From positions 1-10,612 of the forward strand of contig JAFZQP010000082.1 in NCBI GenBank assembly GCA_017620345.1: a stretch of 10,612 bases of DNA, read 5' to 3'. The stretch comes from Lachnospiraceae bacterium. Its GTDB lineage: Bacteria > Bacillota_A > Clostridia > Lachnospirales > Lachnospiraceae. The translations under genes and the position numbers were made by a program. A model generated the notes under the pieces. The model was not told where the DNA came from. It made no database searches and saw nothing but the letters and a program-made list of their open reading frames with translations. Each line of letters begins with the position of its first letter. Within the stretch, counting starts at the first letter, position 1. This document shows, one piece after another, positions 1 through 10,612 of the stretch.

Positions 1-854
1 ATCATCGCAGGAACCTGAGGTTTCAGGTCAACAACAAGTTCAAGATCCTTTGAGTTGTCATTCATACGAAAAGCAGTGACCACATCATCAATAAGTGATG
101 TGCTCATATAATCGTCTTCTTCAAGAAAAACCTTTCCTCTTTTACACTCCGTGTAGTCCTGGATATCCTCGATCTGATAAGCCAGCCTTACCCCCGCACT
201 CTTAATGACATCAGCTTCGTGTCCGGTGGCTTTTTTTATGAGAAGATCCGACATCCCGTTAACAACATTTACCGGGGTTCGGAGCTCATGCGAGATATTT
301 GACAGAAAGTCTTCCATGTTCGCATCATTTGATTCTATTTTTTCATCCTTTATCCTGTTTGTCTCTTCATCATCCAGCCTGTTATTGATCAGTCGAACTG
401 ATGTAAGATATACAAGCAGAACGATCACAATATGCAGAAGTGTTCTGGATATCGTGATCCTGTCAAATGTTATCGGTTCGCCGCCGGGAAGATTTATGAA
501 ATGAATGAACAACAGTATCGCATATTCAAGCAGTATGATGTTCATCATATGAATGCTGTTGAGAATTGAAAAAGTCGCCATTGCAAGTGAAACAGTCAGG
601 GCGATATCAAAGTAACTTGTTTTGTGTATTCCCTGATAGAGCACCATCAGAGCAGCAATAACAAAATAGAATGCCTTGCGTAAACTGTAATCGATCTTAT
701 CCGACAGGCTTACCACCCACAGTGAAGCCACACCGATAAGCTGAGCTAACGGAACCCAGTACTCCCATTCCATGATCACGTTCTCGACTATCAGTCCGAA
801 TGATGCAAGTGTCAAAACATAGACTATGAATTTTTCATTATCGTTCTGTTTCAT
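1..854 (-). CDS. Membrane sensor histidine kinase, C-terminus cut by window edge
   Basis: This is the first 284 codons of a two-component histidine kinase; the rest lies beyond base 1. Residues 1 to about 155 are hydrophobic, with about five to six membrane segments (roughly 8-28, 32-50, 61-78, 83-122 as one or two, 138-155) and almost no extracytoplasmic domain, so it may sense within the membrane or act with a partner. A short charged linker follows, then a HisKA domain with the phospho-acceptor motif SHELRTP at 188-194 (His189). The usual ATP-binding domain should begin near the cut and cannot be confirmed. The ATG at 854-852 overlaps the TGA of the upstream GGDEF gene (ATGA) and has AAGGAG four bases upstream, so translation is probably coupled. 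It is third in an operon with a hybrid sensor and a diguanylate cyclase, and is the obvious candidate kinase for that relay. The family is certain; the signal is unknown. Confidence 0.93.
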   Translation of the reverse strand, partial: MKQNDNEKFIVYVLTLASFGLIVENVIMEWEYWVPLAQLIGVASLWVVSLSDKIDYSLRKAFYFVIAALMVLYQGIHKTSYFDIALTVSLAMATFSILNSIHMMNIILLEYAILLFIHFINLPGGEPITFDRITISRTLLHIVIVLLVYLTSVRLINNRLDDEETNRIKDEKIESNDANMEDFLSNISHELRTPVNVVNGMSDLLIKKATGHEADVIKSAGVRLAYQIEDIQDYTECKRGKVFLEEDDYMSTSLIDDVVTAFRMNDNSKDLELVVDLKPQVPAM

Positions 855-2194
855 CGTACTCCTTTTTCGAATGCTATAGGGGATGTTACATATTCTATAT
901 TAACCCTGTTGTCGTATCCCTGCTCCGACCATGCTTTCATTATTCGATCTATGACCGAGGGCGTATCATCTGGTGACAGGAGTGGTAATACAACAAGAAA
1001 ATCATTCGGTCTGTACTGGAATATGATATCGCTCTTTCTGAGTGTATTCTTAAGGACATTTCCAAATTGCAAGATCATCTCCGAAAAAACAACGCTGTCA
1101 TCATCGGATGATATCCTGAACAAAATCCTGTTTGCATGCCCTCCGTATCGTTTCAGGAACCTGATGATAAAACGATAGTTCCAGGAAAATCCTTCCTGTC
1201 CAAGTATCAGGGCTCCCTTTCCTTCTCCGCGCTCCGATACGATCTGTATGGCGCGCGCTATCTCCTGATCAAGACCATATTGTTCATCCGATTCGGCGAA
1301 CCCGGGATCATATATTGCATACCCGTGCTTGCCGTTCTGCTTGACCGTATACAATGCACTGTCGGCATATTGGAACAGTATCTGATATTCATCAGCGTGA
1401 GCAGGTGCAAAGGTACATCCGATAGAAAGTCCTATCGGTATGCCGTGACCGCTCCCCATGAGCAGATCCGTTTCCCTTATAATCTGTTCGTTCAAACGCT
1501 GAGAGAGCGCTGCCACAGCATCTTCCTGTGTTACGTCGACAAAGAAGGCCATGAACTCATCGCCTCCGATCCTGCATACAACATCTTCGGATCTGATATT
1601 ATGTCTGACGATCTCGGAAAACGCCACAAGTACCCGGTCGCCCATATCGTGACCGTAAATATCATTAACAAGTTTAAAGCTGTCCAGATCAAAGATCAGA
1701 AGCGCGCCGGGACGGTTTTGACACAATGATGAAACCTTTTCACTGCCGCTGCCCTTGTTGAGAAACCCGGTAAGCTTATCAAGTGATGCCTCTTCCGTAA
1801 GGTTTTCTATCGTCCTGCTGTTATCGATCGTGTTGGTGATACGGTTAACAAGAACATCCGCATCAAACGGTTTATGTATAAAGTCGGACGCTCCCGCCTT
1901 AAGTCCCCTTCGTTCCGTTTCGCTGCCGTTTTCCCCGGTTACGAATATGACCGGCGTCTGAGACTTCTCTGTCTGCTCTTCATATATCCGAAGCTTCTTA
2001 TATGTCTCAAATCCGTCCATTTCCGGCATAAGTATATCAAGAAGTATCAGATCGGGGGAATTCTTCTCCATGAAAGCAAGAAGTTCTTCACCCGACCGCA
2101 GGCAGCTTACGCGCATGCCTTTTTTATTCAGTTGTTCCTTTGCATTTTTCAGGCTGAGCGGTTCATCATCGACCGCTACTATCCAGTAACCCAT
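851..2194 (-). CDS. Response regulator diguanylate cyclase (REC-GGDEF) with degenerate second GGDEF-like domain
   Basis: A cytoplasmic response regulator predicted to make cyclic di-GMP from two GTP when phosphorylated. Residues 4-120 are a receiver domain: acidic pair Asp9/Asp10, phospho-acceptor Asp53 in LLDILMPEMDG, Thr86 and Lys108. Residues 135-295 are a GGDEF domain with LTGFLN (141-146), metal-binding Asp169, Asn177 and Asp186 in the substrate region, and an intact GGDEF at 210-214. An inhibitory-site RxxD (Arg201-Asp204) sits five residues before it, so the enzyme is probably active and product-inhibited. Residues 320-447 look like a second GGDEF fold: LRKSDIIFQY is followed by RPNDF (395-399) where GGDEF would be, keeping RxxD (386-389) but losing the catalytic signature. 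The ATG has AAAGG eight bases upstream and lies 14 nt after the hybrid sensor gene. Its Asp53 is the likely final acceptor of the relay encoded around it (inference). Confidence 0.93.
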   Translation of the reverse strand: MGYWIVAVDDEPLSLKNAKEQLNKKGMRVSCLRSGEELLAFMEKNSPDLILLDILMPEMDGFETYKKLRIYEEQTEKSQTPVIFVTGENGSETERRGLKAGASDFIHKPFDADVLVNRITNTIDNSRTIENLTEEASLDKLTGFLNKGSGSEKVSSLCQNRPGALLIFDLDSFKLVNDIYGHDMGDRVLVAFSEIVRHNIRSEDVVCRIGGDEFMAFFVDVTQEDAVAALSQRLNEQIIRETDLLMGSGHGIPIGLSIGCTFAPAHADEYQILFQYADSALYTVKQNGKHGYAIYDPGFAESDEQYGLDQEIARAIQIVSERGEGKGALILGQEGFSWNYRFIIRFLKRYGGHANRILFRISSDDDSVVFSEMILQFGNVLKNTLRKSDIIFQYRPNDFLVVLPLLSPDDTPSVIDRIMKAWSEQGYDNRVNIEYVTSPIAFEKGVR

Positions 2195-2208
2195 TCCGGA
2201 TCCCTTTC

Positions 2209-4302
2209 TTATTTAGCCCCATCAAGTAATTCAATGATAGTGGCGTATTCAAACCTTTCCGATGCAGCCCGGAGCTTTCCGAACAGCTCTGCTTCATCTT
2301 CAGGTATCCTGTATGCTTTCATTTCTTCAAATACGGTCTCAAGTCGGTCGCAATCCATATCATCGGCAGCTTTCCTGATCTGATCATATGCCCTGTTAAT
2401 CAGTTCGGTATCTGCCTCAGGTCTGTCAGCCCCGTCATCCTCTTCTTCCGTGAACAGATATGACAGATCATCACACAGGCGGCGGAATGCATCGATAAAC
2501 CTGTCATGATTAGCCCTGATATAATTTTGATCATCATTCTTGCCGGCATCTTCAAGAGCCTGAGCCTCTTCTCCGAGGCCTGTTGCTCCTATTATCCTCA
2601 GCAGGCTTTTCAGCCCATGAACCTTGATGATATAGTTCTTTATATCATTCTCCGAATACAGCCGGTTAAGTTCACCGGTATTATCATCTACGGATCTGTA
2701 AAACATCCCGAGGAGCGACAGATACGAATCCACAGACCCGTTGTTTTTTATACCCGCATCGATATCAACAGATCTTGTCCGAAGTCTTTCAAGTTCCTCC
2801 GGGATCTTTTCCATGCCTTCTTCGCTGCCTTCAGGGACTTCATATACTTCGATCTTCTCATCCGGAATAAACTTCCTGAGCATAACTTCAAGTTCATCGG
2901 TATCAACCGGTTTCGTCAGATAGTCATCAAATCCGGCATCCATATAGATCTTTCTGGCCCCCGGAACCGCATTTGCCGTAAGACATATAGCAGGGGTTGA
3001 TGCATTGATACACGCTTTGTCGGCCCGTAGCTGCGCCAGCGTTTCTATGCCGTCTTTTTCGGGCATCATATGATCGAGGACGATAACGTCATACTTAGTC
3101 TCTTTGGCAAGTGCGAGGCCCTCATCCCCGCTAAGTGCCGTATCCACGATGATCCCGGTCCTCTTGACCAGATTCAGGAATACCTGGAGATTCATTGAGT
3201 TGTCGTCAACCGCAAGGATCCTTGCATCACTTGCCGTAAATCTTTCTCTTTTTCTCTCTGCCTTCTGCGGCTTACTGCCGGTCTGTTTTTCTCCATTCTT
3301 GGAATATGCCAGTATCTCATCAACAAGACCGAGCAGCTGTGCGCCTGCTGCCTTGACGTTTTCGGAATACTTGCGTATATCCGCCTCTTCGCTCTCCCTG
3401 AATATCATTTCATTATTGCCCAGCATGGCATTGATCGGAGTCCTTATCTCATGTGACATGCTGGCAAGAAAATCACCCTTGGCTCGATCAGCCGCCTCTG
3501 CGATCATGATCTGCTCGGTAAGGGACGTAGCCATGGACTGCAGGGTCCTTGACAGTACTCCGAGTTCATCATCCCTGTCCACCTCAAGATTTCCCGTATA
3601 GTCCCCGTCCTGATAGCGTTTGGCGATCTTCGTGATCTGCGCCATCGGCTCCACGATCGAATTGATCTGAAGGAAACAGATGAATCCTACTACCATAAGC
3701 GTAAAGACAAGAATGACCAGATACAGTATAATGGTCTTTCCTATCTGTTCCGCCTGCTGTCCTTCATACCATTTCTTTGAAAAATCAACCGCAATGATCC
3801 CCGCAACATTACCGGCGGAATCAAAAACGGGACTGTATGCGCTGTAGAATGTTCCCCATTCGTCCGTATACGGTTTTTCATCTGCCGAAGCGATCCCATT
3901 ACTTGCCCTGATAAGCGCATCGGTCTTTACAACTTCGGCTCCGAATTCAGCAGGGTCATTAAGTGCCGGATCTACCGTGAATGTAAATCTTCCGTCATCC
4001 TCTTTGCGGATCCCGTATATATACTCCGTCTCAATATTATCCCTGAAGATCGCAAGCGAATCATATACTCTCTTATATTCCGCCGTATCCTGATCTTCTT
4101 TTGTGAGCTTCTTTAATACATCACCGTTTACCGAACCGGACGCACAGTTTGCGATGTCGAGCATCCTCTGGCGTGTGGATGTTCTGATCGCGTTCTCAGC
4201 CTGAACGACAGATACAACACAAACAAGACCTGAGGCAAGCAGTACCGCAAGCAACACAACGATCTCTATTCTTGAAGCAAGACTCTTTTGTTTATTCTTC
4301 AT
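2209..4302 (-). CDS. Hybrid sensor protein (Cache-like-HAMP-HisKA-REC-Hpt) lacking the ATPase catalytic domain
   Basis: A 697-residue membrane signalling protein. An N-terminal membrane helix (about 13-33) and a second (190-212) flank an extracytoplasmic PAS/Cache-like sensor region (34-188). A HAMP linker (213-265) leads to a HisKA helix pair with SHEIRTP at 283-289 (His284). The HATPase_c domain of about 150 residues that should follow is absent: no N-box, DxGxG or G-box motif is present, and a basic linker (336-358) runs straight into a receiver domain (360-477: Asp366/Asp367, Asp410, Thr442, Lys464). An Hpt domain follows at 512-618 with KVHGLKS (His562, Lys565), then a charged helical tail. 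It therefore has the parts to receive and pass on phosphate but not to hydrolyse ATP itself. It is first in an operon with the GGDEF regulator and another kinase. The ATG at 4302 has no good Shine-Dalgarno sequence and only a short leader after its promoter. Confidence 0.93.
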   Translation of the reverse strand: MKNKQKSLASRIEIVVLLAVLLASGLVCVVSVVQAENAIRTSTRQRMLDIANCASGSVNGDVLKKLTKEDQDTAEYKRVYDSLAIFRDNIETEYIYGIRKEDDGRFTFTVDPALNDPAEFGAEVVKTDALIRASNGIASADEKPYTDEWGTFYSAYSPVFDSAGNVAGIIAVDFSKKWYEGQQAEQIGKTIILYLVILVFTLMVVGFICFLQINSIVEPMAQITKIAKRYQDGDYTGNLEVDRDDELGVLSRTLQSMATSLTEQIMIAEAADRAKGDFLASMSHEIRTPINAMLGNNEMIFRESEEADIRKYSENVKAAGAQLLGLVDEILAYSKNGEKQTGSKPQKAERKRERFTASDARILAVDDNSMNLQVFLNLVKRTGIIVDTALSGDEGLALAKETKYDVIVLDHMMPEKDGIETLAQLRADKACINASTPAICLTANAVPGARKIYMDAGFDDYLTKPVDTDELEVMLRKFIPDEKIEVYEVPEGSEEGMEKIPEELERLRTRSVDIDAGIKNNGSVDSYLSLLGMFYRSVDDNTGELNRLYSENDIKNYIIKVHGLKSLLRIIGATGLGEEAQALEDAGKNDDQNYIRANHDRFIDAFRRLCDDLSYLFTEEEDDGADRPEADTELINRAYDQIRKAADDMDCDRLETVFEEMKAYRIPEDEAELFGKLRAASERFEYATIIELLDGAK

Positions 4303-4329
4303 ACAACGTAATAAGGCGTTTAAAGGATT

Positions 4330-4344
4330 ATTATATCATATTTT
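4330..4344 (-). promoter_or_regulatory. Extended -10 promoter of the signalling operon
   Basis: On the minus strand the sequence reads AAAATATGATATAAT, a perfect TATAAT preceded by TGn (extended -10). It lies 27 bases upstream of the hybrid sensor ATG. No -35 box close to consensus sits 16-18 bases further upstream, as expected for an extended -10 promoter. It would give a leader of roughly 20 nt and make the sensor operon independently transcribed even though it directly follows the flavin-reductase-like gene. Almost the same 15-mer occurs ahead of the hydrogenase-like gene. Confidence 0.6.
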
Positions 4345-4347
4345 CGC

Positions 4348-4923
4348 TCACTTTGATCCCTTAACCGAATAACCGAACTTCCCAAGCTTTTCTCCGAGTG
4401 TGAAATACTCTCCGTGAGAATATGCTATAAGATCCGTGGCGCCAAGATCGAATCTTCCGGACTCATCCATATATGAACCGTCTACCGTGATCCCGGCGAC
4501 ATCTGCTATGAACATATCATGCGAACCGAGCGGTATCATATCCTTGACCCTGCAATAGATATTGACAGGACTTTCCGATATCGCCGGAGTGTTCATATAC
4601 TCCGACACGTATTCGGTAAGATGCATCTTTGCAAACTTGTCGTAGTCCCTTCCCGACCTTACGCCGCACCAGTCGCAGGCTTCCGTAAGTTTGCGCGTGA
4701 CAAGGTTTATCACGAACTCGCCGCTTTCCTTGATGATATCGTGCGAATACCTCTCGGGGCGGACCGAAATGGATACCATTGCAGGCTCCGAGCATATGGT
4801 TCCGGCCCATGCGACCGTTATTATATTGGCCTTTCCGGTTTCCGGCTTACAGCTTACCATGACCGCCGGCAGCGGATATAACATGTTGCCCGGCTTCCAA
4901 TTCTGTTTACTTACATCTGACAT
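4348..4923 (-). CDS. Flavin-reductase-like FMN-binding protein (flavoredoxin type)
   Basis: A 191-residue soluble protein of the flavin reductase-like split-barrel family, which binds FMN and either reduces flavin with NAD(P)H or acts as a flavoredoxin electron carrier. Visible family features are the early strand PAVMVSC (19-25), the FMN-binding stretch NIITVAWAGTICSEPAMVSI (33-52) followed by VRPERYS (54-60), EFVINL (69-74), the late strand GSHDMFIADV (133-142) and the C-terminal LGEKLGKFGYS (176-186). Length is typical of the single-domain family. Cysteines at 25, 44, 83, 86 and 124 could be redox active, but no known motif identifies them. The ATG has GAGG seven bases upstream. It lies 28 nt downstream of the peptidase gene and is probably the last gene of that transcript. 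The exact substrate or electron partner cannot be read from the sequence. Confidence 0.88.
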   Translation of the reverse strand: MSDVSKQNWKPGNMLYPLPAVMVSCKPETGKANIITVAWAGTICSEPAMVSISVRPERYSHDIIKESGEFVINLVTRKLTEACDWCGVRSGRDYDKFAKMHLTEYVSEYMNTPAISESPVNIYCRVKDMIPLGSHDMFIADVAGITVDGSYMDESGRFDLGATDLIAYSHGEYFTLGEKLGKFGYSVKGSK

Positions 4924-4951
4924 ATCATTACCTCTTTCGTATCAATATGTT

Positions 4952-6535
4952 TTATTCATCCTCAACCACGTACCAGTCATCATCTTCTTCATCGTAATAA
5001 TATATCTGATCTTCATATTCATCATAGAAGAACATCATATCCGATTCATCGTCATACAGATATACATTACCGTCTTCATAAAGGTACCAGAGTTTTTCTT
5101 CGTAATCATACTCCCAGTCTTCAAAGTCTTCATCCGGCTCGCATGAATTCCATCCCTGCTCGTATGACTGCCATCCGCACCATGAATCCTCAAAACCGCT
5201 GTAGTCGCAATAATCACCGCTTCCTTCGGCACTTACGAATCTTTCGAGCCAGTCGACATACTCTTTATCAATTCCGCAATTAGAGTATACGTCTGAGAGC
5301 TGTTCATAAAAATCCCTGTCACCGTACGGCAGCGATACAGCCAGCCCTGTGAGCTCATTTTTATCCGAGGTATGTCCGAAATATGCGGCGCATGCTTTCA
5401 GGGCTGTTCGAAGATCTGTTGTGGTCTGATCTTCCTTCCCTACACTCTCGACAATGGACAGCATGTCGCTCACATAGTATTGGTCCATCGTCACCTGGCT
5501 GTCATCTTCTTCCCACGAATCAAAAAAGGTGTCCATGAACCCTCTTCCTTTGGCCATATGAGGTTTACTGTAATTCAGCCCGAGAAGACTGTCCGAGTTC
5601 TTATAGGCATACTCCATCCACTTCTTCATAAGATCCAGTACGGCTTTCTCATTCACAAGGATCATTGTCGATGAATCGCCGGCCTCATCATCGTTTTCGT
5701 TTGCTTCGATCATTCCGTCTATGATCTTCTTCCCGAGCAACGGCGTGGATATCCCGGGATTTTCTTCAAACAGCTTCATCCAGTTGGTATATGACCATCC
5801 GAGTCCCGATTCGAAATCCTCGGACAATACCGCATACTTACAGAAAGGCTCGAGCACATAACAGGTTTCAAGATTAGCCATGATACAGCAATCCATTCCT
5901 ATCATATCAAATCCGATGTCCGAGTTTCTGCGAAGTGCTTCCTGTATCTCATCAAGAGTCAGGGATTCCGTATCTTCCTGCCACTCATCGTATCCGAATC
6001 CGTATACCGGGCCTCCGCCGTGATCCCATAGGATCAGCATATACCTGTCAGCCGGGTAATTTTTTTTCCCAAAATCGATAAAATCAGACAATGTGTCAGC
6101 CTTTGTACAGTCAAGCTGACCCATGTCATCCTTAACAAGTTCCAGTTCGCCCCTGTTTACTTTGTATATCTGGGATGTTTTTGAAGAAATGTCATAGTCA
6201 TGCCATTTTTTTGTTCCCATAGTCTGAACAATGACATTAACATTCTCACCAATGCCCGATTCGATCATCTCATCAAGATCAGTGGTGGCTTCTCCCGCCT
6301 TGGTCTCAAGATCGGACCCGTTCATATAGATCATGACGGTCGCTGATCGTGCATCGCTTCCGATCTCCACAGGCTCTATATCCATCATCTCATTTTCTGC
6401 TTTATGTTCCTGACCGTCTTCCGATTCTTCGATCAGTTCATCGTCGATCTCATCAAGCCACTCATCATCACATCCGCTCAGCACAAAAACCGACAGGAAA
6501 CCTGCGAGCAGAAATCTCATTAACTTCTTTTGCAT
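4952..6535 (-). CDS. Clostripain-family (C11) cysteine peptidase, predicted lipoprotein
   Basis: A 527-residue surface protein. The N-terminus is a lipoprotein signal peptide (charged MQKKLMR, hydrophobic 8-20, lipobox LSGC with Cys22), followed by a very acidic spacer to about residue 58. The peptidase domain starts at ATVMIYMNGSDLE (65-77). The catalytic histidine is His172 in LILWDHGGG (167-175), and the nucleophile is probably Cys217 in MDCCIMA (214-220), matching the DACLM motif of clostripain. This family cuts after Arg or Lys. From about 440 the chain is extremely acidic and aromatic, ending in roughly five short Tyr/Trp-rich segments separated by Asp/Glu turns. The ATG at 6535 overlaps the transporter-fusion gene by 16 nt. 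An in-frame ATG at 6520 overlaps its TAA by one base (TAATG), has AGAAG four bases upstream, and would still leave a signal peptide, so the start is uncertain by five codons. Confidence 0.9.
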   Translation of the reverse strand: MQKKLMRFLLAGFLSVFVLSGCDDEWLDEIDDELIEESEDGQEHKAENEMMDIEPVEIGSDARSATVMIYMNGSDLETKAGEATTDLDEMIESGIGENVNVIVQTMGTKKWHDYDISSKTSQIYKVNRGELELVKDDMGQLDCTKADTLSDFIDFGKKNYPADRYMLILWDHGGGPVYGFGYDEWQEDTESLTLDEIQEALRRNSDIGFDMIGMDCCIMANLETCYVLEPFCKYAVLSEDFESGLGWSYTNWMKLFEENPGISTPLLGKKIIDGMIEANENDDEAGDSSTMILVNEKAVLDLMKKWMEYAYKNSDSLLGLNYSKPHMAKGRGFMDTFFDSWEEDDSQVTMDQYYVSDMLSIVESVGKEDQTTTDLRTALKACAAYFGHTSDKNELTGLAVSLPYGDRDFYEQLSDVYSNCGIDKEYVDWLERFVSAEGSGDYCDYSGFEDSWCGWQSYEQGWNSCEPDEDFEDWEYDYEEKLWYLYEDGNVYLYDDESDMMFFYDEYEDQIYYYDEEDDDWYVVEDE

Positions 6536-9189
6536 TTAAGGACTACCTTCTTCTGCGAAATAGTATAATCTGTTCTTTGCGAAACGACATCTCTGCAAAG
6601 ATCAAGCGTCTTCTGCATCTTGCTGACCATTTCTTCGACACTCTTTTCGACCTCCTCATCGTCCGTTTCCGCGGTCAGTATGAATGCATCGGGTGTCATC
6701 TTCATTTCCCTTACTGCAGCCAGTTTCTTATTCTCCGCTATCTGGTCCTTATCTGTGAGAAGTCCTATATCATAAAGGACAAGCGGATTACGTGAAGCGA
6801 CAACATCGATCTCATCAGCTATCCTGATAAGCGCCGCAAGATACGGCAGGCAGACTGTATTCCCGTTCGGAAGCCTGTAATCGGAAGGATATTCATGCTC
6901 ATCATACAGGTCCGTCCTGCGATGCCCTCTTGCGACCTGTTTGATCGCGAATGTATGCTCCGGAGAAGGAAAATCAAACATCCCGGAATACTTTTCAATG
7001 AACAGCCCGCTGAATTCGTTATGACGATCCCTTACAAAATCACAGATTTCCGCATCCGGATGCTCATCAAAATATGACGCCGCTCCAAAAATATCTTTGA
7101 ACTCATCGTAATCTTTCCTGCTTATTCCCATTCCCGTATCATGAAGGTAAGAAGCCTCAAGAAGAATATAGATCTCATCCGCATTCAGCCTGGCGATCTG
7201 TTCAAGCCCTATTATGCGGTTGCAACAGTCTATAACTGTCATGCTGTGAAGTTCGGAATGATCGGTATATTCCGGGAACAACAGTCTGTATCTGGACAGT
7301 ATCTTCTGTACAACGAACACCGTATCGTTAAACCTTCCGTGAAGATCGGGATCAAGTCGTGCAAGCGTTTTTTCCAACAGAAAATCCGTCTTTTGAAGCC
7401 TCAAAAGATCCCGGTCATGTATACGTATCGTAAGCACATTGAGCCCGAGAAGATTCTGATAGGACACATCATCAGCGATCTTATATACCATCCGTATCCC
7501 GATATTTGCAGACGGATCGTTCTGCTGCCTGACCATCTGTGCGATCTGTCTTATATCAAACGGTTCGCAGTCATCCTTGATCCGCAGTATAACATTGTTA
7601 TTACGGATTATGACAAGAGCGTTCAGCGAGTGGTCCCGTTTTCCGGGAGTAAAACCATGTTTGATAACATTTCCCGCAAGTTCCTCAAGGCATAAAGCCG
7701 AATAATATGCAGCCCTTTTTTCCATGTCATGTCCTTCACAGAACTGCTGCACACGCTCAGCAGTATGCGACAGTTCATCGTTATCACGTATCGTGATGAA
7801 CAGCGAGTCGTCATGCGGTACTCCGAAATCCTCGAAAAAGAACATAAGATCGTCTTTTCTTTGAGGAAGGCGTTTAAAATATATAACACGGTATAACGGG
7901 ACCGTCAGTATCGTAAGGATTATCCCTATCGGATTGGCAAGCCAGACTCCGAGTGCTCCAAGGATCGGTGCCAGGATAAGGGACGGGATCACCATAGCAA
8001 AGAAACCGTCAAAAACGGATACGAAATTGACGAACATTGCGTGGCCCATAGCCTGAAGATAATTGGTCTGAACCTGACAGATAAGGACCATCGGAATGCA
8101 TAGGGCATAGATCATGAACAACTTATATGTAAGACTGTAAACATTGGAACCGGGATCCGAAAAAAACAACCCCGCTACAGGCTTTGACAGGATCAGGACT
8201 ATGGCCGCCACAAGCGCCGACAATGCCATTGCCTTTTTTTCAAGGACCGAAAAAAGCTGCCAGATCGAATTCCTGTCTTCCTCTCCGAAGAAAACACTGA
8301 CGAGCATCCGGACAACAGATCCGTTACCAAGGCAGAAAGCTATCAGTATCCCAAGGATCATATTGAACGCGGACATGGCGGAAAGTCCGTCTCCGCCCGC
8401 ATACTTTAGCAGGATGCGGTTAATGACGAGTCCTCGAAATCCCATACAGAAAACAAGAAGCGCCCCGGGAAAACCGATCCTGAGCATCTCAGGAGCAAGC
8501 TTCCAGCGTATCTTCGATGCCGCAAAATGAAGCTGCGACCTTCCGGACAGATAGTAAGGTGTTAAGATCAGGAAATAAACAATATTTGAAATGGATGTTG
8601 CCAACGCAAGTCCGAAAATTCCCATCCTAAACACGGCAACGAGGACGATATCAAGTATGATATTTGTTGCCGTCATTCCCGCGATACCGATATATCCTCT
8701 CTTATCCTGTCGTTCGAGTTGCAGGAACGCAGCTATCTGCTGTGAGAAAAGCATCGGCAGTATCCCGATCGAATACCACATTATGTATGTAACGAGGGCA
8801 CCCTTTAATTCCGCATTTGCTCCAAGAGCTGTGGCCAGTGGTCCGGGAATCACCAGACTTATAAGAGTAAGAACGGTTCCGATGATAAAAGTCAGAGCCA
8901 TGTCGAGCGAAAAAACACCCTCTGTCTTATCGATGTCTCCCCTTCCCATGAACCTTCCGCACAGAACCGCTGAGCCTCCGAGAAATACCGCACCTGAAGC
9001 GTTGATGATGTTGATCATGGAATAGTACAGACCGACAACACCCACCGACGATGAGTCAATAAAACGTCCCGCCATGGCACCGTCAACGATCGAATTGACG
9101 CTCCCCATGGCAAAGATCAATATCTGAACAGGAAGCATTTTAAAAAAAAGCTTCTCTATCATTTTGTTATCAGCTGTCAGACCTTTCAC
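6520..9189 (-). CDS. MATE-family transporter fused to RsbW-like GHKL ATPase and HD phosphohydrolase domains
   Basis: An 889-residue fusion. Residues 10-440 are a MATE/MOP-type transporter with about twelve hydrophobic segments; early motifs include GSVNSIVDGAMAGRF (29-43) and SAVLCGRFMGRGD (73-85). Residues 450-590 are a GHKL ATPase domain of the anti-sigma factor (RsbW/SpoIIAB) type: LCLEELAGNVIKHGF (499-513, N-box Glu502/Glu503/Asn507), Asp-box IKDD (537-540) and G-box ANIGIRMV (561-568). Residues 600-889 are an HD-superfamily domain with His648, YLHDTG (681-686, His683/Asp684), RDRHNEF (720-726), RGHRRTD (754-760) and LIRIADEID (787-795), a complete-looking metal site resembling HD domains that pair with GHKL ATPases in nucleotide-signalling and conflict proteins. 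MATE proteins alone are about 450 residues, so the second half is an addition. The start is GTG at 9189, as an in-frame TAA lies three codons upstream; ATG at 9162 is an alternative. The substrate is unknown. Confidence 0.9.
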   Translation of the reverse strand: MKGLTADNKMIEKLFFKMLPVQILIFAMGSVNSIVDGAMAGRFIDSSSVGVVGLYYSMINIINASGAVFLGGSAVLCGRFMGRGDIDKTEGVFSLDMALTFIIGTVLTLISLVIPGPLATALGANAELKGALVTYIMWYSIGILPMLFSQQIAAFLQLERQDKRGYIGIAGMTATNIILDIVLVAVFRMGIFGLALATSISNIVYFLILTPYYLSGRSQLHFAASKIRWKLAPEMLRIGFPGALLVFCMGFRGLVINRILLKYAGGDGLSAMSAFNMILGILIAFCLGNGSVVRMLVSVFFGEEDRNSIWQLFSVLEKKAMALSALVAAIVLILSKPVAGLFFSDPGSNVYSLTYKLFMIYALCIPMVLICQVQTNYLQAMGHAMFVNFVSVFDGFFAMVIPSLILAPILGALGVWLANPIGIILTILTVPLYRVIYFKRLPQRKDDLMFFFEDFGVPHDDSLFITIRDNDELSHTAERVQQFCEGHDMEKRAAYYSALCLEELAGNVIKHGFTPGKRDHSLNALVIIRNNNVILRIKDDCEPFDIRQIAQMVRQQNDPSANIGIRMVYKIADDVSYQNLLGLNVLTIRIHDRDLLRLQKTDFLLEKTLARLDPDLHGRFNDTVFVVQKILSRYRLLFPEYTDHSELHSMTVIDCCNRIIGLEQIARLNADEIYILLEASYLHDTGMGISRKDYDEFKDIFGAASYFDEHPDAEICDFVRDRHNEFSGLFIEKYSGMFDFPSPEHTFAIKQVARGHRRTDLYDEHEYPSDYRLPNGNTVCLPYLAALIRIADEIDVVASRNPLVLYDIGLLTDKDQIAENKKLAAVREMKMTPDAFILTAETDDEEVEKSVEEMVSKMQKTLDLCRDVVSQRTDYTISQKKVVLKCKRS

Positions 9190-9296
9190 CCGTACTTATC
9201 CAACCTTTTTCTATGTCCGCACGCGTTGCCCCTCCGAGGATCCAGGCATGTTGCGTATCTTTCATCTCCTGACGGTACAAAATCATCTGTTCCCAT
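9186..9296 (-). CDS. Possible 36-codon leader ORF before the transporter fusion
   Basis: Between the toxin gene and the transporter fusion, an ATG at 9296 has AAGGA seven bases upstream and opens a 36-codon frame. Its TGA overlaps the GTG start of the transporter gene (GTGA), an arrangement often used for translational coupling, and it would explain why that GTG has only a weak binding site of its own. The product (MGTDDFVPSGDE...) is not recognised. A competing frame (ATG 9286 to TGA 9170, 38 codons, with a helical-looking stretch around HAWILGGATRADIEKG) covers the same bases and looks at least as protein-like, so only one of the two can be right and neither may be translated. Confidence 0.25.
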   Translation of the reverse strand: MGTDDFVPSGDERYATCLDPRRGNACGHRKRLDKYG

Positions 9297-9348
9297 TTTA
9301 TTGTCCTTTTGTTCCGGATAGTTTCAAACTGATCCAAATATCTCGCCG

Positions 9349-9666
9349 TTACAATCCTCTTATTATACTGAGGTAATCTTGCCTCTGGTCAACAACCGTA
9401 TAAACCGTAACCGTTTTTTTCTTTTCACCAACCTTATAAAAGACAAGATCTTTTTCTAATATAAGCACCAAATATCCCTGGCGTTTCAATACGTTATATC
9501 TTGGTTCTACTCCGATGTATGGGTTATCACCAAGATTCATAATAGCCTCTTCCAAATAATCTAATTTCTCAAGAGCCACATCATTTCCAAAGTTCTCTGC
9601 TATAAACAATACTATCTTGCGAATCAGGGAATCGGCCGTATCCGTTCTTTCAACTCTATACTTCAA
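9349..9666 (-). CDS. RelE/ParE-family toxin of a type II toxin-antitoxin system
   Basis: A 105-residue RelE/ParE-fold protein. Members either cleave mRNA at the ribosome (RelE-like) or poison gyrase (ParE-like); the sequence does not settle which. Two N-terminal helices (about 9-46) precede the typical strand pattern: GVEPRYNVLKRQGYLVLI (52-69), DLVFYKVGEKKKTVTVYTVV (73-92), then the C-terminal DQRQDYLSII (93-102), which is characteristic of the family. It starts with TTG at 9666, not ATG. That TTG overlaps the antitoxin TGA (TTGA) and has GGGAGG at 9674-9679, seven bases upstream, so the start is well supported. It is co-transcribed and translationally coupled with the antitoxin gene. The pair appears AT-richer than the flanking genes, consistent with acquisition by transfer. 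Confidence 0.88.
   Translation of the reverse strand: MKYRVERTDTADSLIRKIVLFIAENFGNDVALEKLDYLEEAIMNLGDNPYIGVEPRYNVLKRQGYLVLILEKDLVFYKVGEKKKTVTVYTVVDQRQDYLSIIRGL
9362..9392 (-). promoter_or_regulatory. Candidate promoter for the transporter-peptidase-flavoprotein genes
   Basis: Inside the 3' end of the toxin gene the minus strand has TTGACC (9387-9392) and TATAAT (9362-9367) separated by 19 bp. The -10 box is perfect and the -35 has five of six consensus bases, but the spacing is long. Transcription from here would give a leader of about 165 nt before the GTG at 9189. Read-through from the toxin-antitoxin operon is also possible, as no terminator is visible between them. Confidence 0.4.
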
Positions 9667-9947
9667 GCCTGACCCTCCCTGAGCATCCTTCGTAAATCAT
9701 CGAAGGTATCCTTCATGGGAGCTACCCTTCCGCATTTAACATCCTCATCCGCTTCAGCCAGTATTTCCAAAAGCTCTATTCTGGCCTTCATTCTCTTGTA
9801 TTCCTCATAGCCAATAGAAACTGTATCACCTCTTCCATTTACAGTGATGATCACAGCCTCATTATTCTCACGGCATTGTTTTGATACTTCGTTATAATGG
9901 TTTCTAAGATCCGCTGACGGACGAATTGTTTCTTGTAATGAATACAT
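9663..9947 (-). CDS. Phd/YefM-family antitoxin
   Basis: A 94-residue antitoxin that should bind and neutralise the toxin through its C-terminal half and repress the operon through its N-terminal DNA-binding domain. The N-terminus has the family pattern: IRPSADLRNHYNEVSKQC, then a strand with EAVIITVNGRGDTVSI and the helix start GYEEYKRMKARIELLEIL. The acidic, probably flexible toxin-binding tail is EADEDVKCGRVAPMKDTFDD. The frame could open at a GTG at 9956, but that codon lies inside the Shine-Dalgarno sequence, so the ATG at 9947 is chosen. Its TGA overlaps the toxin TTG. It is the first gene of the two-gene operon. Confidence 0.9.
   Translation of the reverse strand: MYSLQETIRPSADLRNHYNEVSKQCRENNEAVIITVNGRGDTVSIGYEEYKRMKARIELLEILAEADEDVKCGRVAPMKDTFDDLRRMLREGQA
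9674..9679 (-). promoter_or_regulatory. Shine-Dalgarno site fixing the toxin TTG start
   Basis: The minus strand reads GGGAGG within the antitoxin 3' end, seven bases before the TTG at 9666. This strong site supports TTG as the real toxin start, since no ATG or GTG lies nearby in frame. Confidence 0.75.
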
Positions 9948-9951
9948 CGAA

Positions 9952-9960
9952 ATCACCTCC
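9952..9960 (-). promoter_or_regulatory. Extended Shine-Dalgarno site of the antitoxin
   Basis: The minus strand reads GGAGGTGAT, a nine-base match to the complement of the usual 16S rRNA 3' end, followed by four bases and the ATG at 9947 (eight bases from GGAGG). It decides the start in favour of that ATG, because the upstream in-frame GTG is part of the site. Such strong antitoxin initiation fits the need to make more antitoxin than toxin. Confidence 0.8.
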
Positions 9961-9963
9961 GTT

Positions 9964-9975
9964 TCTATATATAGA
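9964..9975. repeat. 12-bp palindrome, candidate antitoxin operator
   Basis: TCTATATATAGA is a perfect 12-bp palindrome between the -10 box and the Shine-Dalgarno sequence of the toxin-antitoxin operon. Phd/YefM antitoxins repress their own operons by binding palindromes at this position, so this is a reasonable operator candidate. It is AT-rich, and a chance palindrome is possible. Confidence 0.45.
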
Positions 9976-9978
9976 CAT

Positions 9979-10007
9979 ATTATATCGCGATAAGTCTACG
10001 GATTCAA
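9979..10007 (-). promoter_or_regulatory. Promoter of the toxin-antitoxin operon
   Basis: On the minus strand, -35 TTGAAT (10002-10007) and -10 TATAAT (9979-9984) are separated by exactly 17 bp, a near-consensus sigma-70-type promoter. The -10 box lies 31 bp upstream of the antitoxin ATG at 9947. Palindromes overlap and follow the -10 box, which suits autoregulation. Confidence 0.75.
9983..9992. repeat. 10-bp palindrome overlapping the -10 box, candidate operator
   Basis: TATCGCGATA is a perfect 10-bp palindrome that shares two bases with the -10 hexamer of the toxin-antitoxin promoter. Its centre is 18 bp from the centre of the TCTATATATAGA palindrome. Binding here would block RNA polymerase, as expected for antitoxin autorepression. 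The two palindromes differ in sequence, so at most one may be the true site. Confidence 0.45.
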
Positions 10008-10022
10008 CGAGTATTCAAACGA
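10002..10022. repeat. Short direct repeat at the divergent promoter region
   Basis: ATTCAACGA (10002-10010) is followed one helical turn later (11 bp) by ATTCAAACGA (10013-10022). The first copy contains the -35 box of the toxin-antitoxin promoter. It also sits upstream of the -10 box of the plus-strand gene, so a regulator on this pair could affect both directions. It is short and could be chance. Confidence 0.3.
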
Positions 10023-10033
10023 AGTAGAATGAT

Positions 10034-10048
10034 AAAATGTGATATAAT
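10034..10048 (+). promoter_or_regulatory. Extended -10 promoter of the hydrogenase-like gene
   Basis: AAAATGTGATATAAT contains a perfect TATAAT with TGn directly before it and ends 36 bases ahead of the TTG start. No clear -35 hexamer is seen 16-18 bp upstream, typical of extended -10 promoters. It diverges from the toxin-antitoxin promoter. Confidence 0.6.
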
Positions 10049-10070
10049 CAGTCAGTATAAATTTAAATAC

Positions 10071-10076
10071 GGGAGG
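10071..10076 (+). promoter_or_regulatory. Shine-Dalgarno site fixing a TTG start
   Basis: GGGAGG lies eight bases before the TTG at 10085. It identifies TTG as the start of the iron-sulfur protein and rules out a later start, which would lose part of the first cysteine cluster. Confidence 0.75.
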
Positions 10077-10084
10077 ATCGGTAA

Positions 10085-10612
10085 TTGAAAAAGGGGCTTG
10101 TATATACGAATGAAAACTGCATCGGATGCAACAAATGCATCCGGGCCTGCAGCTGTATCGGTGCCTGTGTTTCCACGCAGCCTGATGAGCGCGGTATTTC
10201 CCAGATCGAGGTCGATGGCAGTCTGTGCGTCGCCTGCGGCGCCTGTTTTGATGTTTGCGAACACAAAGCACGGGCCTTCAGGGATGATACGGAAGATTTT
10301 TTTAAAGATCTGGAAAACGGTGAGGCTGTTTCTCTTCTCATAGCACCTGCTTTTCAGGCGAATTATCCGAATGAATATGCCTCAGTGCTTGGCGGCCTTA
10401 AAGCCCTTGGCGTACGCCGCATGATCAACGTATCTTTCGGAGCGGATATAACAACATGGGGATATATCAATTACATCAGGGAACATGATTTTTCCGGAGG
10501 GATCTCACAGCCGTGTCCTGCGGTGGTCGGATACATTGAACGATACATCCCGGAACTGATCCCTAAGCTTTTCCCTGTGCAGAGCCCTTTGATGTGTGCA
10601 GCCATATATGCC
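10085..10612 (+). CDS. Ferredoxin-domain [FeFe]-hydrogenase-like protein (sensory HsfB-like type), C-terminus cut
   Basis: The first 176 codons of an iron-sulfur protein that continues past the window. Residues 5-65 are a ferredoxin domain for two [4Fe-4S] clusters: Cys12, 15, 18 and 22, and Cys48, 51, 54 and 58; Cys24 and Cys28 are extra. From about residue 80 the sequence resembles the [FeFe]-hydrogenase large-subunit domain in the diverged form seen in putative sensory enzymes. SQPCPAVV (142-149, Cys144) stands where catalytic enzymes have TSCCPAW, and SPLMCAAIY (167-175, Cys171) where they have MPCTAKK. This points to a hydrogen or redox sensor rather than a bulk hydrogenase, but the third cysteine motif is off the edge. 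In such proteins the unseen part often carries PAS and output domains such as a SpoIIE phosphatase or a kinase (family knowledge, not seen here). It starts with TTG and is transcribed divergently from the toxin-antitoxin pair. Confidence 0.82.
   Translation, partial: MKKGLVYTNENCIGCNKCIRACSCIGACVSTQPDERGISQIEVDGSLCVACGACFDVCEHKARAFRDDTEDFFKDLENGEAVSLLIAPAFQANYPNEYASVLGGLKALGVRRMINVSFGADITTWGYINYIREHDFSGGISQPCPAVVGYIERYIPELIPKLFPVQSPLMCAAIYA

Follow-up and report, generated by a model that had tools for sequence, protein, structure and literature searches.

The question raised by the stretch of DNA analysed here, the 10,612 nucleotides (nt) of contig JAFZQP010000082.1 from a Lachnospiraceae bacterium (assembly GCA_017620345.1, positions 1 to 10,612, forward strand; hereafter the window), is what a MATE transporter does with a signalling-type ATPase and a phosphohydrolase in the same chain. 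A single gene at 6520..9189 on the minus strand, where all of its parts described below also lie, encodes a protein of 889 amino acids (aa) whose open reading frame (ORF), Pfam matches and homologues agree on the order MATE, RsbW-like HATPase_c_2, HD-CE. The reading put forward here, with a probability of roughly 0.43, is that this protein would act as a membrane-tethered partner-switching module, in which a STAS-domain partner controls the transporter via the RsbW-like domain and HD-CE sets or reads a nucleotide signal. It is built on the architecture, the conserved active sites, the ATPase fold, the phosphodiesterase-like HD signature, the fusion history, the gene linkage of unfused relatives and the assembly of the same parts on a second transporter, all of which come from this analysis.

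The frame comprises 889 codons from a GTG start at 9189 to the stop at 6520 and holds zero internal stops; the database copy of the protein (P0001) has 880 aa, which fits a start at the ATG of residue 10. MatE, HATPase_c_2 and HD-CE (PF24391) all exceed their curated Pfam cut-offs in that order, so the three modules in one continuous frame described in the original prediction are borne out. A search with residues 441-889 gave 718 hits, and the precomputed domain column places MatE together with HD-CE in 106 of the 120 listed homologue clusters (P0001-P0105 and P0109), with HATPase_c_2 as well in 97 of the 106. Where the source names an organism for P0001-P0105, it is Lachnospiraceae bacterium or Butyrivibrio. 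One scan of species genomes gave 74 related loci, 32 of them fused. Because MatE and HD-CE occur together in 106 clusters and the fusion recurs in 32 of the 74 loci, it is not an assembly join. The possibility of a frameshift or assembly artefact, which the original prediction had itself raised, is ruled out by the unbroken ORF, the homologue clusters and the fused loci in other genomes.

The transporter part spans residues about 9-437 (7879..9165), as delimited by the MatE Pfam match (73.9 bits in two stretches, cut-off 24.9), by an own hidden Markov model, by alignment to DinF-BH and PfMATE and by conservation. DinF-BH (BH2163) and PfMATE are its best sequence relatives in the PDB. Window residues Asp36, Asn176, Asp180 and Thr198 align with PfMATE Asp41, Asn180, Asp184 and Thr202, which we take to be the N-lobe cation (Na+) site. 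In the conservation alignment, which consists of the window protein and P0001-P0105 (106 rows), Asp36 is kept in 95 rows (7 N, 1 G, 3 gaps), Asn176 in 105, Asp180 in 100 and Thr198 in 105. This retention argues for a working ion-coupled MATE transporter and not a dead scaffold. The solved chains differ in being the transporter alone, at about 440-500 residues, and the window protein falls below the cut-off of the NCBIfam matE subfamily model TIGR00797 (98.2 vs 147.4 bits).

A structure model of the whole chain (predicted local distance difference test score 81, predicted template modelling score 0.64) returned from Foldseek only MATE and the related MurJ and WzxE among the 50 matches listed, and for this reason the C-terminal part was modelled alone for comparison of the ATPase fold. 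In that model the closest folds of the domain at residues about 450-598 (7396..7842) are the anti-sigma kinases SpoIIAB, RsbW and UsfX, which agrees with the RsbW-like identity proposed earlier for this GHKL ATPase; HATPase_c_2 matches residues 471-589 with 34.5 bits. The N-, D- and G-boxes had been called intact, and this holds for the N-box (residues 502-512, 7654..7686), where Glu502, Glu503 and Gly512 are kept in 106 of 106 rows, Asn507 in 101 and His511 in 99. The G-boxes are only partly canonical. Asp539 (104/106), Asp540 (106/106) and Gly564 (104/106) are conserved; measured against the canonical GHKL G1 and G2 glycines, a motif assumed here as the textbook reference, the G1 glycine position is taken by Cys541 (105/106) and the G2 box at 564-566 reads GIR. 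Across the MATE family the ATP site is mostly kept. The likeness to the RsbW/RsbV/RsbU and SpoIIAB/SpoIIAA/SpoIIE systems thus lies in the fold, in the N-box Glu and Asn residues and in the STAS and SpoIIE genes beside unfused relatives; the differences are that here the kinase-type domain forms one chain with a membrane transporter, the G-box glycines are altered and HD-CE is added.

HD-CE occupies residues 638-872 (6574..7278) and matches PF24391 with 124.8 bits (cut-off 27). The complete set of metal ligands listed in the original prediction is confirmed, as His648, His683, Asp684, His723, His756 and Asp792 are each invariant (106/106), and the set is likewise present in 39 of 39 members of set A3. 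With these six ligands invariant and the N-box kept, there is no loss of active sites across the homologues. The dyad His683-Asp684 lies at 7138..7143. His644, four residues before His648 and kept in 105 of 106 rows, also belongs to the HD site, an addition to the earlier ligand list; the resulting His644-x3-His648 motif (7246..7260) aligns with the HNxxH of cyclic-nucleotide phosphodiesterases, which are the PDB entries closest in sequence to the HD-CE profile. Both the HNxxH and HD motifs align in the profile match to PDE10A, the second motif residue here being Ser or Thr and not Asn. HD-CE thus resembles the class I cyclic-nucleotide phosphodiesterases in these motifs and differs in that identity is 9-14% in the structural rows and the PDEase_I Pfam profile is absent among the hits of the window protein at E 0.1. 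We infer from the shared motifs that HD-CE is a phosphodiesterase-like hydrolase of a nucleotide signal.

That GHKL and HD domains recur together elsewhere also proved correct: HD-CE is followed by an HSP90-like HATPase_c_3 in five of six long HD-CE proteins scanned (one of the five below cut-off; the row L111, labelled HSP90-type, has no HATPase_c_3 hit) and also in P0116. These proteins (PF24391 with PF13589) share the HD-CE family and its pairing with a GHKL ATPase, and equivalents of His644, His648, His683, Asp684, His756 and Asp792 are found in 24 of 24 rows, His723 in at least 90%. In contrast to the window protein, they have the HD domain first and the HSP90-type ATPase after it, are longer, lack MATE and fall outside the window's HD-CE branch in a quick tree. 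On that branch, HD-CE is also fused to an M20-type peptidase (P0107, P0108) and to a nucleoside hydrolase (P0110, P0112); the latter fusion hints at a nucleotide or nucleoside product.

How the three parts came together can be followed in the 74 loci. Beside the 32 fused cases, the transporter with its ATPase domain (MATE-HATP) and HD-CE are adjoining separate genes on the same strand in 12 (split loci), MATE-HATP occurs without HD-CE in the locus in 13, HD-CE without a recognised MATE-HATP in 16 (in one, L057, the MATE gene is cut by the contig end) and a partial MATE only in one. In a MATE-HATP tree of 83 rows, all 33 fused copies, the window included, fall in one clade of 38 rows with a support of 99 (Shimodaira-Hasegawa-like approximate likelihood ratio test, SH-aLRT), and the sister of this clade, L021, has the two genes as a split pair 3 nt apart. 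A single fusion within a two-gene operon that was already in place, and a few later losses, would leave this pattern; the clade holds five members without HD-CE. P0109, a divergent MATE-HATP-HD protein with 26% identity over the chain, branches elsewhere in the HD-CE tree and may represent a second fusion event. All trees are quick SH-aLRT trees in which several long branches are unsure, and the second one lost L128, a long HD-CE row. Two loci carry a separate second HD-CE gene after the fused gene (L011, 4831-5787; L031, 12660-13529), by the tree apparently a recent duplication.

The two halves also tend to occur in the same genome when not adjacent. Exactly one HD-CE was found in 15 of 16 genomes examined. 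Where HD-CE does not adjoin a recognised MATE-HATP (20 genomes, with some HD-CE genes near contig ends, as in L067 and L062), a full-length MATE-HATP is encoded elsewhere in 14 and a partial one in G716; G709, G715 and G717 gave no hit, and G712 and G291 have a MATE without the ATPase. For comparison, at least 14 of 150 genomes drawn from the family contain a full-length MATE-HATP, a lower bound because eight candidates were scored per genome and from a different taxonomic draw; four of 18 genomes were dropped there, their match covering the transporter only. Conversely, of the 13 genomes that have a MATE-HATP locus without the HD part, only four have HD-CE above cut-off elsewhere, one of these being a fused paralogue, so that the dependence runs from HD-CE to MATE-HATP only.

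A link to partner switching, suggested by the RsbW-like domain in the original prediction, was recovered in relatives of the window protein. ORFs for STAS, SpoIIE or RsbW lie within 5 kb at five of the 12 split loci (0.33 expected) and at two of the 16 HD-CE-only loci (0.37 expected), where the expectations assume 10 partner-switch genes per 2.9 Mb, evenly spread. Among 42 MATE-HATP genes in 16 genomes, nine lie no more than 5 kb from a gene for single-domain STAS or SpoIIE, where gene density predicts 1.46, and six no more than 2 kb from one (0.74 expected); counted per contig, the figures are 6/33 vs 1.44 expected (p 0.002) and 4/33 vs 0.74 (p 0.006). The 42 include two partial genes and one fused gene, and G008, whose neighbours were already known, gives one of the nine; excluded were G010 and G702 (chosen because their adjacency was already known), STAS frames longer than 200 aa, one of 55 aa and SpoIIE rows below 60 bits. 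Restoring the dropped rows (11 SpoIIE and 28 STAS of the 16 genomes) adds two near genes (G057, G095), the expectation being that from before restoring.

Several of these neighbourhoods are compact. A 98-aa STAS gene directly follows HD-CE in L024, L035 and L038, and in L035 the next genes are those for a permease, STAS, another MATE-HATP, STAS, SpoIIE and an RsbW standing alone. In L188 the order is MATE-HATP, STAS, RsbW, MATE-HATP, with genes overlapping or almost so; SpoIIE immediately precedes MATE-HATP in L045 and L195; and L148 (8911-12534, minus strand) has an operon of C11 peptidase, STAS, RsbW and HD-CE. Stand-alone RsbW genes occur in the clusters of L035, L188 and L190. GH3-family genes lie beside STAS/SpoIIE and MATE-HATP loci in L043 (7913-9673) and L011 (1-2133). 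Partner-switch linkage is therefore a property of the unfused relatives; the fused genes stand alone.

The same domains are found on another kind of transporter. P0111 and its relatives belong to the SDF (dicarboxylate-type) transporters and have at their N-terminus an RsbW-like domain (hhalign probability 96%, E 2.2e-9 against the rsb profile; 48% against the MATE-family HATP; transmembrane controls 0), and four of 32 SDF hits, the query included, have HD-CE at the C-terminal end. Because SDF proteins carry both domains too, a transporter, an RsbW-like domain and HD-CE have come together two or more times, with the order of the parts differing and the transporter folds unrelated. The N-box asparagine of P0111 appears lost by eye, a change that fits docking better than catalysis. 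A precedent for a transporter bearing one half of the anti-sigma switch pair is offered by the SulP/SLC26 transporters, which have a C-terminal STAS domain (PMC8256260); the half there is STAS, whereas here it is RsbW, on other transporter folds and with a phosphohydrolase added.

In the proposed mechanism, the N-terminal part would be a DinF/PfMATE-type MATE transporter that is coupled to ions, and the cytoplasmic RsbW/SpoIIAB-type domain would bind ATP and a STAS-domain partner, which it may phosphorylate. The phosphorylation state of STAS, reversed by a SpoIIE-type phosphatase, would set whether the transporter works. HD-CE, a phosphodiesterase-like enzyme placed beside the switch, would hydrolyse a nucleotide signal with the help of metal and so couple signal level and transport. 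STAS binding, the direction of control, the use of ATP and the substrates of both the HD domain and the transporter are what we infer in this scheme.

Several observations weigh against it. The main weakness is the lack of enrichment at the fused loci themselves, where partner-switch ORFs lie within 5 kb in two of 32 (L011 and L022, the latter with a 392-aa STAS protein; 0.86 expected), so the partner of the fused protein, if any, is encoded elsewhere. No partner-switch gene was found in the window, and only one of the 13 MATE-HATP loci without HD-CE has such an ORF within 5 kb (0.29 expected). In nine of the 13 genomes with an HD-less MATE-HATP locus no HD-CE is above cut-off anywhere, and the HD part is thus dispensable. 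Kinase activity is uncertain because the G1 and G2 glycines are non-canonical. Finally, the tail of the NCS2-type permease family adjoining STAS genes, RsbW-like by eye, reaches only 19% in hhalign against rsb and 4% against HATP (transmembrane controls 0-0.1%) and is not counted as a shown RsbW domain. As a separate observation, L065 (4777-6363) encodes a single STAS-APH-HATPase_c_2 protein to which the STAS ORF beside the fused MATE in L022 (12703-13881) is related; a kinase-STAS-RsbW chain is possible for these proteins.

The absence of enrichment at fused loci, together with the five fused-clade members that lack HD-CE, speaks for a plain MATE pump whose cytoplasmic domains form an ATP- or metal-dependent regulator without a STAS partner, HD-CE being a housekeeping nucleotidase fused incidentally. 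This is considered unlikely, as adjoining as well as fused forms, co-occurrence within genomes, the STAS/SpoIIE linkage of unfused relatives and the re-assembly on SDF transporters are unexpected of an incidental fusion. Alternatively, information could flow in the reverse direction, with MATE sensing an ion gradient or substrate, the RsbW-like domain acting as the output, by releasing or phosphorylating a STAS protein or sigma factor and thereby altering gene expression, and HD-CE tuning the response. RsbW/SpoIIAB domains are classical outputs onto sigma factors and STAS proteins, and both the largely kept ATP site and the stand-alone RsbW genes would suit such a role. Yet the transporter has retained its ion-site residues, the RsbW-like domains borne by SDF and by NCS2-type permeases seem degenerate when inspected by eye and better suit docking than kinase output, and no sigma-factor gene was noticed beside the related loci, where no search aimed at sigma factors was made. 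The reversed arrangement is regarded as rather doubtful, though it ranks second after the main reading. The original prediction had pointed to conflict systems, and a role in conflict or defence, as a membrane GHKL and HD effector triggered by phage or by a nucleotide signal, found little support: the PADLOC hits are partial only and fall mostly on the HD part of RT_UG24, a model for defence reverse transcriptases (21.1 bits at window residues 641-699; 41.6 in L021, 32.9 in L148, 22.6 in L093) and, weakly, on Cas3-HD in L021 and L148. These hits and the occurrence of HD-CE with HSP90-like ATPases speak for it, whereas no PADLOC model matched the window protein along its full length, 15 of 16 genomes have just one HD-CE and the scanned neighbours of fused loci are ordinary (deformylase, fmt, priA, lepA, hemN and others; no dedicated defence-gene search was made), which leaves this role very improbable. 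Control of the transporter through a STAS partner thus remains the preferred reading.

Directly downstream in the window lies a gene for a C11 (clostripain-family) lipoprotein peptidase (4952..6535, minus strand; PF03415, 101.6 bits), probably co-transcribed with the fusion since the genes overlap by 16 nt. The suggestion that it belongs to the same system did not hold up. BLAST homologues (1e-8) occur in just two of the 74 loci, many of them short-flanked, in both cases about 7.5 kb off and neither adjacent. The gene next downstream was scanned in ten of the 32 fused loci and in none is it C11; the ten genes encode a cell-wall hydrolase, a YgjV-like protein, GGDEF-EAL, Fe-hydrogenase, dihydroorotate dehydrogenase, Fe-ADH, a GDSL-lipase-like protein (below cut-off), an amino-acid kinase, YqeC and a urea transporter. 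C11 was rejected as a conserved partner on these counts; the L148 operon, with the same C11 family, indicates that a link may exist in some lineages. Further along, the minus-strand ORF at 2209-4302 resembles a sensor kinase with HAMP, HisKA, receiver and Hpt domains and is missing the HATPase_c that related hybrid kinases of L001, L002 and L023 carry between HisKA and receiver; the ORF is possibly the result of a deletion or a kinase needing a partner's ATPase. Just upstream of the fusion gene is a Phd/YefM antitoxin and ParE toxin pair (9349-9956, minus strand), for which no BLAST homologue at 1e-8 was found among ORFs of at least 90 aa in the 74 related loci. A ferredoxin and Fe-only hydrogenase-like gene (10085-10612, plus strand) is cut by the window end; in L005, an Fe-hydrogenase gene lies directly downstream of the fused MATE.

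A search of the open-access full-text literature gave no description of a MATE-RsbW or MATE-RsbW-HD protein among the matches listed. The Joint Genome Institute name of several members, Na+-driven multidrug efflux pump/anti-sigma regulatory factor, means that the MATE-RsbW union has already been annotated by machine. What is rated as new here is a form of partner switching in which the transporter itself is one of the members and a phosphodiesterase-like domain is added. Partner switching is known for its part in freeing sigma factors; here the RsbW half is attached to transporters with two or more unrelated folds, accompanied by that domain. Perhaps, and this is put forward tentatively, Clostridia possess a general, unrecognised form of transporter control in which RsbW-type domains on MATE, SDF and possibly NCS2 permeases would connect them to STAS/SpoIIE switching, with HD-CE as the nucleotide-signal input and the window protein as the fully fused, self-contained form. 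If control of the transporter by its partner is true, it would mean that in bacteria of the gut and rumen a protein switch acts directly on membrane transport, would give a function to part of HD-CE, a large uncharacterised HD family, and would yield testable predictions on STAS-transporter pairings and on the nucleotide cut by the HD domain. Bacteria may thus wire transporters straight into a protein-switching signal pathway.
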